Shown here: positions 6,522-11,225 of the stretch, piece by piece
Layout of the letters: every line of letters begins with the position of its first letter
How positions within the stretch are numbered: the stretch's first letter is position 1
NCBI RefSeq assembly: GCF_937129525.1
Contig: NZ_CAKZNK010000143.1
Span: 1-64,000, forward strand
DNA from: an uncultured Chloroflexus sp.
GTDB taxonomy: Bacteria; Chloroflexota; Chloroflexia; Chloroflexales; Chloroflexaceae
Direction of reading: 5' to 3'
Length of the DNA stretch: 64,000 bases
Notes under the pieces: model-generated
The model's database searches: none
What the model saw: the letters and a program-made list of their open reading frames with translations, nothing else
Told to the model about the DNA's origin: nothing
Program-made: the position numbers and the translations under genes

Positions 6522-7331
6522 ATGGCGCTTGAGATTGCCTTCGATAAAATTGCTGACGTTTATGATGCCCAGCGCGCCCATCCACCCGCAGTAGCAACGG
6601 CGATCGGGCAAGCTATTATGGCTCAGATTGGCAGCGGCGCGCGCGTGCTAGAGATCGGTGTTGGGAGCGGACGCATTGCCTTACCGGTTGCCGCTGCCGG
6701 CGGGCAGGTGATCGGGATCGACATTTCAGACGGAATGCTGGCTGCTGCGCGCGAGCGAGCCAGGCAGGCAGCGCTGGTTTTGTCGCTGGTTAAAGCCGAT
6801 GCCCAGGCTCTGCCGTTCGCCGACGCAACGTTCGATGCCACCCTGGCAGTGCACGTGCTCCATCTCCTTCCTGACTGGCGGGCAGCGCTGGCCGAGATGG
6901 TGCGCGTAACCAGAATGGGTGGGGTAATCATTCAGGGCACCGATTGGCGTGACCCGGCCTCGTGTGTCGGTCTCCTCCGCGGACAACTACGGCAGGCTGT
7001 GATGGATCTGCTCCCTGGCGCGCGTCCACCCGGCGCCGGCGCTGCGGTGAGTCAGCATTTGACCAAACTTGGCGCGCCGGCAGGTGAACCGATTGAAGCA
7101 GCGCGCTGGCAACGCACTGTCAGCCCCGCCGAAGTGATCAGCGGCATGGCTGCTCGGATTGACGCCGAAACCTGGGCCTTGAGCGATGACATCCTGTCAG
7201 CGGCTATCGAGCGCGTGCAGGCATGGGCCCAACAACGCTGGCCTGATTTGAACGAACCCCAGGTGGTTGAACATCGGTTTCTTCTGACGGTGAGTCGCGT
7301 CGGTGGCATAACGCCGGCAACCAGCGAATAA
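6522..7331 (+). CDS. Class I SAM-dependent methyltransferase
   Basis: VLEIGVGSGRIALPVAAAGGQVIGIDISDGML motif I; within the bch cluster. Confidence 0.8.
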   Translation: MALEIAFDKIADVYDAQRAHPPAVATAIGQAIMAQIGSGARVLEIGVGSGRIALPVAAAGGQVIGIDISDGMLAAARERARQAALVLSLVKADAQALPFADATFDATLAVHVLHLLPDWRAALAEMVRVTRMGGVIIQGTDWRDPASCVGLLRGQLRQAVMDLLPGARPPGAGAAVSQHLTKLGAPAGEPIEAARWQRTVSPAEVISGMAARIDAETWALSDDILSAAIERVQAWAQQRWPDLNEPQVVEHRFLLTVSRVGGITPATSE

Positions 7332-7348
7332 TGCGGAGGACACGGGTT

Positions 7349-7837
7349 ATGTACACTCCTGAACAGCTCGAACGGCGTAACCGTTCGCCATGGACAAAAG
7401 CGCAGTTTATCCTGGCGCCGATTCAGTTTATCGTCTTTCTCATCAGCTTTGGATTGGTTATTCGCTATCTTGCTACGGGTGAAGGGTATTGGATCGCGAC
7501 GATCAGTGTCTGGATCAAGATTGCGCTGATTTGGGCGCTGACGATCACCGGAATGTTGTGGGAACACGACATCTACGGGAAATACTTTATGGCGCCTGAA
7601 TTCTTCTGGGAAGATTTAGGCAATCTGATCGCGATCCTGACCCATAACGCCTATTTCGTTGCGGTCTGGCTCAAGCTCGATGACCGCACAGTGATGTGGG
7701 TGATGGTGTTTGCCTACGTGACCTACCTGTTTAACGCTGGCCAATTCCTCTGGCGTGGGATCCGTTCGGCGAAGGAGCGTCGCCTGTTGCAGGCTCAATT
7801 ACAGGCGCAGGCAGCCGGAGCTTCGAAGGCTTCCTGA
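7349..7837 (+). CDS. bchF: 2-vinyl bacteriochlorophyllide hydratase BchF
   Basis: YTPEQLERRNRSPWTKAQFILAPIQFIVFLISFGLVIRYLATGEGY...APEFFWEDLGNL...NAGQFLW matches the BchF family pattern. SD GGAGGA places the start at 7349 rather than 7331. Confidence 0.85.
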   Translation: MYTPEQLERRNRSPWTKAQFILAPIQFIVFLISFGLVIRYLATGEGYWIATISVWIKIALIWALTITGMLWEHDIYGKYFMAPEFFWEDLGNLIAILTHNAYFVAVWLKLDDRTVMWVMVFAYVTYLFNAGQFLWRGIRSAKERRLLQAQLQAQAAGASKAS

Positions 7838-7921: not shown

Positions 7922-8911
7922 ATGCCGATCAAATCGCGCGCGGTAGTTATTCCGAAACGGAATACGATCGAAATTCGCACGGTGCAGGTCAACGAGCCGA
8001 AAGCCGGTGATGTGCTGATTAAAACCGCGTTTACCTCGATCAGCGCCGGCACTGAGCGCATGTTGCTCGACGGACGGTTGCCACAGCCCCAACTCCTCTT
8101 CCCTGTGGTGCCCGGCTATGAGACGGTCGGACAGGTGGTGCAGGTCGGAAGCAAAGCGCCTAAGGAGTTACTCGGACAGTGGGTGTATATCGGCGGCGCG
8201 CGCTGTTTCCGCGGCGTCAATGCAGCCTGGGGCGGACAGAGCGAGTATATTACCGCCGAGCACGAACGGGTAGTGCCGTTAGGCCCAATTGATCCGGCTA
8301 CCGGCGTGCTGTTAGCGCTGGCGGCCACTGCGTTACACGGCGTCAAGATCGGTCAGATCCGCCGCACCGACCGCGTACTGGTGTTGGGGCAGGGCATTGT
8401 TGGCCAGTTGGCAGCGCGATTGGCGAAACTGGTCGGCGCGCACCACGTCGCCGTTGCCGACCGCGTTGCAGTACGCTTGCAGGCCAGCCAGGCTGATCAG
8501 GTTATCGACGTTACCCGCGAGTCGCTTGATGAGGCAATTGGTGAGGCAAAAGTAGATGTCCTGATCGAGGCGACCGGCTCGATGGGAGCGTTGTCAGGCG
8601 CGCTGCCGTTGCTCGCCAATCACGGGCGGGTGGTACTGCTCGGCTACTATGACCATATCAATATTCCATATGCGCCGGTTTTTATGCGGGAAGCGCAGAT
8701 CCTGATCGCGCGTGAATGGGAGTTTGGTCCCGACGGCGACCTCCCGCGCGTGCGCGATATGCTCGCCAGTGGTGAATTGAATGTTGATGGATTGCTGACG
8801 CATCACGTGCCACTTGACCGGATTCAGGCTGCCTATCGCCTGGCGCTCGAAGACCCTGCTTGCTTAAAAGTGGTTGTGACATGGCCACAGAATGGCGCTG
8901 ATCCGACCTGA
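7922..8911 (+). CDS. bchC: Bacteriochlorophyllide dehydrogenase BchC (zinc-type alcohol dehydrogenase-like)
   Basis: TSISAGTERMLLDGRLP, PGYETVGQVV, VLVLGQGIVGQLAARLAKL; cluster context. Confidence 0.85.
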   Translation: MPIKSRAVVIPKRNTIEIRTVQVNEPKAGDVLIKTAFTSISAGTERMLLDGRLPQPQLLFPVVPGYETVGQVVQVGSKAPKELLGQWVYIGGARCFRGVNAAWGGQSEYITAEHERVVPLGPIDPATGVLLALAATALHGVKIGQIRRTDRVLVLGQGIVGQLAARLAKLVGAHHVAVADRVAVRLQASQADQVIDVTRESLDEAIGEAKVDVLIEATGSMGALSGALPLLANHGRVVLLGYYDHINIPYAPVFMREAQILIAREWEFGPDGDLPRVRDMLASGELNVDGLLTHHVPLDRIQAAYRLALEDPACLKVVVTWPQNGADPT

Positions 8912-9032: not shown

Positions 9033-10268
9033 ATGCCAGCGAATCCCAGGCAGAAACAAAGCGGTTCAACTGCGCGAATGCTGGCCGTCTACGGCAAAGG
9101 CGGCATGGGAAAGTCATTCTTTACCACCAATCTGGTCAGCAAACTGGCGCTGCTGGGTAATCGCGTGCTCCAGCTCGGCTGCGATCCGAAGCACGATAGC
9201 TGCAATGCGCTCTTTGGCGGTGTAAGCCTGCCTACGCTTGGCGATGTCTGGCGTGAATTCAAAGAAGCCGGACGCGAAGAAGAACTGGCAGCCCACCACG
9301 TCATTTTTAAGACTACCATTATGAATGGTGCCGCAACCGTCTACGGCTGCGAGATCGGCGGCCCCGAGGTTGGACGCGGCTGCGGCGGACGCGGTATCAC
9401 CTTTGGCTTCGATATGCTGGAAAAGTTTGGCCTCAGCCAGTGGGCACTCGATTATGTGGTGATGGACTTTCTGGGTGATGTGGTATGCGGCGGTTTTGCG
9501 ACTCCGCTCTCCCGATCACTGGCGGAAGAGGTGATCATTTTGTGCGGTAATGACCGCCAGAGCCTTTACGCCGCCAACAATATCGCCAGCGCCGCCAAAT
9601 ACTTTGCCAGTATGGGTGGGCGCACGAAGTTGCTGGGGCTGGTTGTGAATCGCGATGACGGCAGCGGCGTGGCTGCTCGCTTCGCCGAAAAGATTAACCT
9701 GCCGATCCTGGCCAGCATCCCGCTTGACCGCACAGTACGCGAACTGGCTGATGCCTGCAAGCTGGCACTGCAAGAGCCGCGCTTTGATGCTATCTTCGAC
9801 CGCCTGGCCCGCCAGATCATCGACCGCACCCTGCCGGTCGTCAATATGGAAGATGTGCGACCACTCGAATACAAAGAGTTCCTGAGTGTGTTTGGCGCCG
9901 AAGAGCCTGATATTGTCCCCGATGGCGCGAGCGCCGAGGAGCTATTTGGCGGCAAATCGATCCGTCAACCGGCGCCGGTGATCACACTGGGTTTGATGGA
10001 GCGAGCCGTTGGCGACAAACCGGATATGGATGCGCCTACCCGGATGGTGGTGAAGCGTCTGCTGAAAGAGTTGGGTATGTATGTCACCGAGGCCGCTTAT
10101 GACCCGAAAAAGGGCATGACGTTAACCGTTGACGGACACACCACCATTTGTATGGGTAACACTGACGATCTTGACAGCAAAATTGCGATACTGGCCGCAT
10201 TGCAGCGTTCGGGCGAACAATTTCGCTACGTTGACCTGCGCCGTCCGGCCAGTCCATTTTACCGTTAG
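9033..10268 (+). CDS. bchX: Chlorophyllide reductase iron-protein subunit BchX with a C-terminal FtsQ/DivIB-like extension
   Basis: YGKGGMGKSFFTTNLVSKLALLGNRVLQLGCDPKHDSC (P-loop), GRGCGGRGI, FLGDVVCGGFATP (Fe-S cysteine region) identify BchX. The last roughly 100 aa lie beyond the usual BchX end. Confidence 0.85.
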   Translation: MPANPRQKQSGSTARMLAVYGKGGMGKSFFTTNLVSKLALLGNRVLQLGCDPKHDSCNALFGGVSLPTLGDVWREFKEAGREEELAAHHVIFKTTIMNGAATVYGCEIGGPEVGRGCGGRGITFGFDMLEKFGLSQWALDYVVMDFLGDVVCGGFATPLSRSLAEEVIILCGNDRQSLYAANNIASAAKYFASMGGRTKLLGLVVNRDDGSGVAARFAEKINLPILASIPLDRTVRELADACKLALQEPRFDAIFDRLARQIIDRTLPVVNMEDVRPLEYKEFLSVFGAEEPDIVPDGASAEELFGGKSIRQPAPVITLGLMERAVGDKPDMDAPTRMVVKRLLKELGMYVTEAAYDPKKGMTLTVDGHTTICMGNTDDLDSKIAILAALQRSGEQFRYVDLRRPASPFYR

Positions 10269-10311: not shown

Positions 10312-10473
10312 ATGCGGCTACGCCTGGTCACCAAACCGATGGAGTATCGGGTAGCGCCACTGATGCTCAGAGTGCGCTGGTGGATCGAGGGATGGATCTG
10401 GCGCTGGGGTCAAACCGCAGCGGCACTACACGCCGATAACCCGGAGTCGCAGAATCCGTTCTGGAGGCGGTAA
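10312..10473 (+). CDS. 53-aa Trp-rich small protein in the bch operon (not in the ORF track)
   Basis: MRLRLVTKPMEYRVAPLMLRVRWWIEGWIWRWGQTAAALHADNPESQNPFWRR; SD GGAGGTG 4 nt upstream; its TAA overlaps the next ATG (TAATG). Confidence 0.65.
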   Translation: MRLRLVTKPMEYRVAPLMLRVRWWIEGWIWRWGQTAAALHADNPESQNPFWRR

Positions 10474-11225
10474 TGAATGAACACGATGAACTGCCAGATC
10501 TGAAAGAACTCAACCGCCTGTTGATTGAGCGAATGCGGGTGAAGCGTCGACCGGTCGCGATTACCTACTGCTACGAAGGGCCGCCACCAGGGTACGAACC
10601 GGTCAACATTGTGGCGTGTGCGATTGTGCGCGAAGCGGAACAGGGTCGGCGTGTCTATGTTGATGCCAACCACCACGACTGTTGGGTCGGACAATACCAT
10701 CTCGGCTTTAACCCTGATCCGGGGCCATATATCACCGAAGGGGTATATCTCACCGACGCTCAGGGGTTCTATACGCCTGAAGCAGCGGCCTGTAACAAGC
10801 GTCAGAGCTACTCGCTGCCGGCAGGGATGATCAAGGCATTGGCAGCCGCGCCGCTTGATGATGTTCCCGATGGCGTGCCGGTTGATCTGATGGTGTGTGT
10901 GGTTGACCCGCAACGCGCAATGCAAATTGCCGGCGCGGCCAGTGTGCGAATCGGCACGTTTCCGGTCGGCGAGTTGGGTGCCAGTGCATGCGCCTCAATT
11001 TTCGCTGCGCCGTGGCACACGAAAAATTCAGTTTTTGCGATTGGCGACGGCGGCGGACGAATGCATAACCGGCTCGATCCGAGCGAAATGTTCGTTTCCA
11101 TCCCGCGATCACATTTGCGCTACGTGGTAGAATTAATAGAGAACTTCCGTATCGATCCGCAGAAGATGCGAGAAGTCATAATGCCGTCGTATGCCGCAAA
11201 GGCAAAGCAACCGCGAGAGGAGTGA
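10473..11225 (+). CDS. DUF169-like protein within the bch cluster
   Basis: RMRVKRRPVAITYCYEGPPPGYEPVN, CVVDPQRAMQIAGA, SACASIFAAPW pattern resembles DUF169. Confidence 0.65.
   Translation: MNEHDELPDLKELNRLLIERMRVKRRPVAITYCYEGPPPGYEPVNIVACAIVREAEQGRRVYVDANHHDCWVGQYHLGFNPDPGPYITEGVYLTDAQGFYTPEAAACNKRQSYSLPAGMIKALAAAPLDDVPDGVPVDLMVCVVDPQRAMQIAGAASVRIGTFPVGELGASACASIFAAPWHTKNSVFAIGDGGGRMHNRLDPSEMFVSIPRSHLRYVVELIENFRIDPQKMREVIMPSYAAKAKQPREE

Follow-up and report, generated by a model that had tools for sequence, protein, structure and literature searches.

The iron protein of chlorophyllide a reductase (BchX) of an uncultured Chloroflexus sp. ends in a domain that is almost certainly a fused piece of the FtsQ/DivIB beta-domain, namely its C-terminal part. 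Profile, reciprocal-profile, fold and rare-indel evidence agree on this origin, and so uphold an earlier note that had proposed an FtsQ/DivIB-like piece fused to BchX. The fusion is real and lineage-wide, and it is unreported in the open-access literature searched, where no paper linking chlorophyllide a reductase BchX and FtsQ was found.

BchX serves chlorophyllide a reductase (COR) as its ATP-driven iron protein; it is a soluble, cytosolic enzyme that depends on ATP and an Fe-S cluster. In the window, that is, the whole stretch of 64,000 nucleotides that was analysed, it is encoded by an uninterrupted frame of 411 aa. The gene is surrounded by a bacteriochlorophyll gene cluster with the order bchF, bchC, bchX, a 53-aa ORF, a DUF169 gene, bchI-like and bchD-like. 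The features are:

7331-7837: bchF, by match to Pfam BCHF
7922-8911: bchC, a reading from domain content and gene order
9033-10268, plus strand: bchX, chlorophyllide a reductase iron protein with C-terminal extension (TIGR02016, 480.6 bits; Fer4_NifH, 230.8 bits)
9075-9938, plus strand: catalytic body of BchX, aa 15-302 (TIGR02016 span), with P-loop and [4Fe-4S] cysteines C117 and C152
9942-10037, plus strand: linker, aa 304-335, of low model confidence and fast-evolving
10038-10265, plus strand: domain derived from the FtsQ/DivIB beta-domain, aa 336-411 (own-genome FtsQ at E=2.7e-9, PF03799, Foldseek, hhalign)
10230-10262, plus strand: last strand and C-terminal motif VDLRRPASPFY, aa 400-410, matching the edge (Y243-W256) at which E. 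coli FtsQ binds FtsB
10312-10473, plus strand: unannotated gene for a 53-aa Trp/Arg-rich microprotein, directly 3' of bchX; an ORF conserved in Chloroflexaceae only
10473-11225, plus strand: gene for a DUF169 (COG2043) protein, between bchX and bchI
11485: bchI-like, a reading from domain content and order
12780: bchD-like, likewise a reading from domain content and order

The TIGR02016 score lies above the curated cut-off of 331.2 bits, the equivalog threshold. The P-loop of the window BchX reads GKGGMGKS, and both cysteines were invariant in the 36 BchX sequences aligned. The bchY and bchZ genes were located on a separate contig (G000:C140:1639-4322, minus strand), where a tyrosine-recombinase-like frame was seen nearby. 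A DUF169-like frame likewise lay 3' of bchX at several Roseiflexaceae and Anaerolineae loci, which suggests a role for this protein in bacteriochlorophyll synthesis.

The BchX of Proteobacteria (plasmids of Roseobacter litoralis, Novosphingobium and Thiodictyon; n=3, of 334, 328 and 341 aa) has the same body, Fe-S cysteines and P-loop as the window protein, but within its 328-341 aa it ends in a short KPSLEVxYDxA peptide where the window BchX has the FtsQ-like domain. The earlier claim of about 100 additional residues past the normal BchX end was therefore borne out, since the frame is intact and the proteobacterial proteins stop shortly after that point. The extension of about 105 aa consists of a linker of about 30 aa and a predicted folded domain of 76 aa. 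The span first given for the tail, 9975-10268, does contain a real extension, but the homologous domain proper occupies only 10038-10265 (aa 336-411), and the tail sequence quoted at that time, while present in the protein, left out the 26 residues that separate ...EELFGG (aa 307) from APTRMV (aa 334). In the AlphaFold model, pLDDT was about 53-55 around aa 311-330 of the linker, which varies strongly in length and sequence among BchX proteins, and about 90 across the tail domain, which is predicted to fold on its own. The order of its elements is helix, three strands, helix and a last strand ending in DLR-x4-P-x-Y.

A Pfam search of the full-length window BchX gave no FtsQ match, while the tail alone matched PF03799 (FtsQ_DivIB_C) with E=6.6e-4 and 20.9 bits, just under the gathering score of 21, so that standard domain annotation misses it. 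Sensitive comparisons were far clearer. Run against the six-frame translation of the source genome, a profile of 36 non-redundant BchX tails recovered BchX itself (2.3e-38) and then the genome's own FtsQ (2.7e-9, 39.3 bits), which carries POTRA_1 and FtsQ_DivIB_C domains; the next match stood at 0.69. Across 82 Chloroflexales genomes the same profile found two sets of matches only, BchX (frames of about 390-490 aa, cut ones aside) and FtsQ (mostly 250-340 aa, with E-values down to 3e-14), and among 400 Chloroflexota genomes it added apparent FtsQ proteins in dozens more genomes and nothing recognisably other. Matches in both searches were named by score and frame length, and 24 Chloroflexales FtsQ were read as sequence. 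Conversely, a profile made from Chloroflexota FtsQ only found the window BchX with 54.5 bits (E=3.7e-17 in a set of 76 proteins). Alignment of the tail with FtsQ by hhalign reached 99.4% with a score of 110, against 11 for the best of 60 column shuffles; with Chloroflexales FtsQ it reached 98.8%, aa 336-411 aligning with FtsQ aa 196-270 at 33% identity.

The fold gave the same answer. The nine top Foldseek matches of the tail model in the PDB were all FtsQ with probability 1.00, the next family having 0.11; taken singly, these matches had modest E-values of 1e-3 to 2e-2, with TM-scores of about 0.5, and the weight lies in their uniform identity. A single tail searched against the PDB with phmmer returned only spurious RecA and interferon matches, and the tail profile ranked P. 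aeruginosa FtsQ first (E=0.0058). The beta-domain of FtsQ/DivIB (PF03799; PDB 6h9o, 2vh1, 8p1u, 8bh1) and the tail are thus alike in profile, in the order of helices and strands, and in the conserved G, G, K, DLR and P-x-Y. Comparison of tail and FtsQ by profile and fold, the check on which the original proposal was to stand or fall, came out in its favour, and the profile, fold and shuffle tests rule out a chance resemblance. The tail nevertheless differs from FtsQ in several ways: it holds the C-terminal half of the beta-domain only, is fused to a cytosolic Fe protein, and does not keep the Y248 position. The Pfam search detected no POTRA_1 domain in the window BchX, and in its sequence the Fe-protein fold starts at once, with no N-terminal membrane anchor and no visible signal sequence.

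The tail was present in all 76 intact BchX proteins that were aligned (the window and 75 loci) and complete in 75 of them. They came from Chloroflexus, from Oscillochloris-, Chloroploca- and Viridilinea-type genomes, from Roseiflexaceae and from Anaerolineae/Thermoflexales. The exception, locus L012, has a BchX that ends at YVE (bchX end at 7197) and so is without the last 11 or so residues (the DLRRPASPFYR-type end); at this locus, the microprotein gene begins a few bases 3' of the shortened bchX. Occurrence at 75 further loci, under selection, rules out a frameshift, a misassembly or a fusion confined to one strain. The class-wide search returned complete BchX proteins without a tail only from two Chlorohelix-like genomes (G139, locus L152, and G140, locus L153; frames of 294 and 307 aa), which belong to the same Chloroflexota class and in which bchX is followed by bchY and bchZ. 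G139 is probably a 'Ca. Chlorohelix allophototropha'-like genome, and it has its own FtsQ. The BchZ proteins of these loci (L152:6245-8263, plus strand; L153:987-2915, minus strand) are extended at the N-terminus, ahead of Oxidored_nitro, by some 120-150 aa that have no Pfam match, their starts being provisional. Outside the class, G388 had two tail-bearing BchX-like frames (C37:14253-14498 and C67:2990-3232). A scan of viral contigs found no BchX, and searches of plasmids gave no Chlorobi BchX match and no significant match to the tail. As had been asked at the outset, the tail is not a standard part of all BchX, being present in Chloroflexus and Roseiflexus and absent from proteobacterial and Chlorohelix-like proteins; the BchX compared were those of Chloroflexota and the three proteobacterial plasmid copies.

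A rare deletion points to the source of the tail. The second helix is shortened by 4 residues in 36/36 BchX tails and in 22 of the 24 Chloroflexales FtsQ, and by 3 residues in the other two (L172, L174) and in the Chlorohelix-like FtsQ (L155), while none of 18 FtsQ from other classes has the shortening. Since this helix deletion is common to the tails and Chloroflexales FtsQ, the tail appears to have been taken from an FtsQ of the Chloroflexales line. In a tree built on 82 columns, too few to fix the order of branches around the two groups, the BchX tails were set apart as one group in 84% of bootstrap trees, and the Chloroflexales FtsQ as another in 98%. The simplest account is a single capture from an early FtsQ of the Chloroflexales line, and later movement to Anaerolineae together with phototrophy by lateral transfer (on the transfer of phototrophy, see PMC10972752). 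Because the tail has the Chloroflexales-type deletion, tail-bearing BchX elsewhere, above all in Chlorobi, would most likely come from the Chloroflexales line.

In comparisons of Chloroflexus- with Oscillochloris-type species, dN/dS was about 0.01-0.12 for the enzyme body and 0.02-0.15 for the tail, rough ratios given that synonymous sites were near saturation in many pairs. Values for the linker were mostly several-fold above those of the flanking domains. The tail is a maintained domain tethered by a loose linker. This pattern bears on the idea that the tail is a structural element, lending stability to BchX or the BchX dimer without binding a partner. Its C-terminal position and independent predicted folding would suit such a role, but it is complete in 75/76 intact genes, with a dN/dS close to that of the body while the linker drifts, and the short BchX proteins of a different phylum and of a different order within the class manage without it; we regard this explanation as improbable.

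The ancestry and design of the tail are best explained by a docking role, and a folded domain on a fast-evolving linker fits a tethered recruiter. We judge the chances to be about even that the tail is a small docking module in the cytosol, an ancestral divisome module that has been reused. In E. coli FtsQ, the last strand of the beta-domain (conserved region Y243-W256) accepts an FtsB segment of helix-loop-strand form, which joins it by strand addition, and the two meet outside the cytoplasmic membrane (PMC6134095). In the Chloroflexota with type II reaction centres, BchX ends in a 76-aa FtsQ-derived domain on a flexible linker; by analogy, the last strand of this domain would grip a short segment of a partner located in the cytosol. 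The likeliest candidates would come from bacteriochlorophyll synthesis rather than from the divisome or the chlorosome: BchYZ itself, an enzyme neighbouring it in the pathway or locus, or a factor that faces the membrane and keeps the enzyme near its lipophilic product. Points against docking include the natural BchX of L012, which is without most of the C-terminal motif, the restriction of the tail to the C-terminal half of the beta-domain, and the changes along the FtsB-binding edge described below. Comparison by eye revealed no tail-linked changes in BchY or BchZ. The shorter BchY of Chloroflexus, relative to that of Proteobacteria, was rejected as a sign of partnership, since the BchY of the tail-less Chlorohelix-like genome is shorter too, as was a PCP_red-like segment at the C-terminus of BchZ, which is present in Proteobacteria too.

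Along the FtsB-binding edge, all 36 of the 36 BchX tails and all 24 of the 24 Chloroflexales FtsQ had the same residues at D401, R403 and P408, and the equivalent of Y410 was conserved in both proteins (Y or F in BchX tails). Y248, which contacts FtsB in E. coli FtsQ and is essential there (PMC6134095), is not kept: at this position BchX tails have Arg, Tyr, His, Glu or another residue, and Chloroflexales FtsQ a gap or Pro, so that the binding chemistry has changed. As D245N and R247Q are without effect in E. coli FtsQ (PMC6134095), conservation of the equivalent residues may be structural. The FtsQ ancestry, and the retention in the FtsB-facing segment of D401, R403, P408 and, for the most part, Y410, could be taken to mean that FtsB or some other protein of the divisome is bound by the tail, coupling bacteriochlorophyll a synthesis to septum formation or cell growth; the loss of conservation at the critical Y248 position speaks against this. 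It is unlikely that the tail docks to the division machinery in the native mode of FtsQ, because the FtsQ domain meets FtsB outside the membrane and BchX is a soluble cytosolic enzyme without a visible signal sequence; a division-linked function as a whole is very improbable.

The main rival to docking is autoinhibition, in which the tail folds back on BchX or bridges the dimer, gating access of BchYZ to the [4Fe-4S] cluster or tuning ATP turnover. There is a precedent in the sister protein BchL of DPOR, likewise a nitrogenase-like Fe protein of pigment synthesis with an added terminal element, where a flexible segment covers the cluster until ATP releases it (PMC7948495). The flexible linker of BchX, and residues conserved in its tails but not in FtsQ (G348, V351, T352, T365 and A389), are in keeping with intramolecular regulation of this kind. 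The BchL element, however, is a short disordered N-terminus unrelated to FtsQ, unlike the folded C-terminal domain of BchX, and a linker so variable in sequence and length suits a tether more than a fixed gate. We consider such regulation a plausible but somewhat unlikely alternative.

The earlier note had also suggested docking to a site of chlorosome biogenesis, by which the tail would recruit bacteriochlorophyll synthesis to the place of chlorosome assembly. The source genus, Chloroflexus, makes chlorosomes, as is generally known. Roseiflexus (L035 and others), which the title of a reference cited in PMC10972752 describes as being without chlorosomes, has the tail, and the tail is missing from BchX of a Chlorohelix-like genome that is presumed to bear chlorosomes, 'Ca. 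Chlorohelix allophototropha', the presumed namesake of these genomes, having them (PMC10972752). This distribution leaves chlorosome docking close to refuted, and the least probable of the explanations considered.

Returning to a cytosolic docking module, one candidate partner is encoded directly beside bchX. The 53-aa microprotein has the invariant positions Y, A, P, R, R, W, W, N and W and no match in Pfam, and its stop codon overlaps the start of the DUF169 gene (TAATG). It gave 23 strong matches in the 82 genomes and was conserved only beside bchX, in Chloroflexaceae-type genomes, with no convincing match in the Roseiflexaceae genomes searched. The proposal that it binds the BchX tail is speculative, and because it is less widely distributed than the tail, it cannot be a partner for tail-bearing BchX in general. 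Our tentative view, held at rather less than even confidence, is that gene fusion moved an extracytoplasmic divisome module across the membrane and made of it a cytosolic docking module, which would assemble or place the bacteriochlorophyll a reductase with a partner of its own, possibly a new microprotein such as this Trp-rich one.

The fusion connects two systems that are not known to touch, the nitrogenase-like enzymes of pigment synthesis and the divisome, and through it the placement or regulation of chlorophyllide a reductase in filamentous phototrophs can be put to the test. As a rare genomic marker, the fusion also has a bearing on the dispute over the direction in which photosynthesis genes were transferred.
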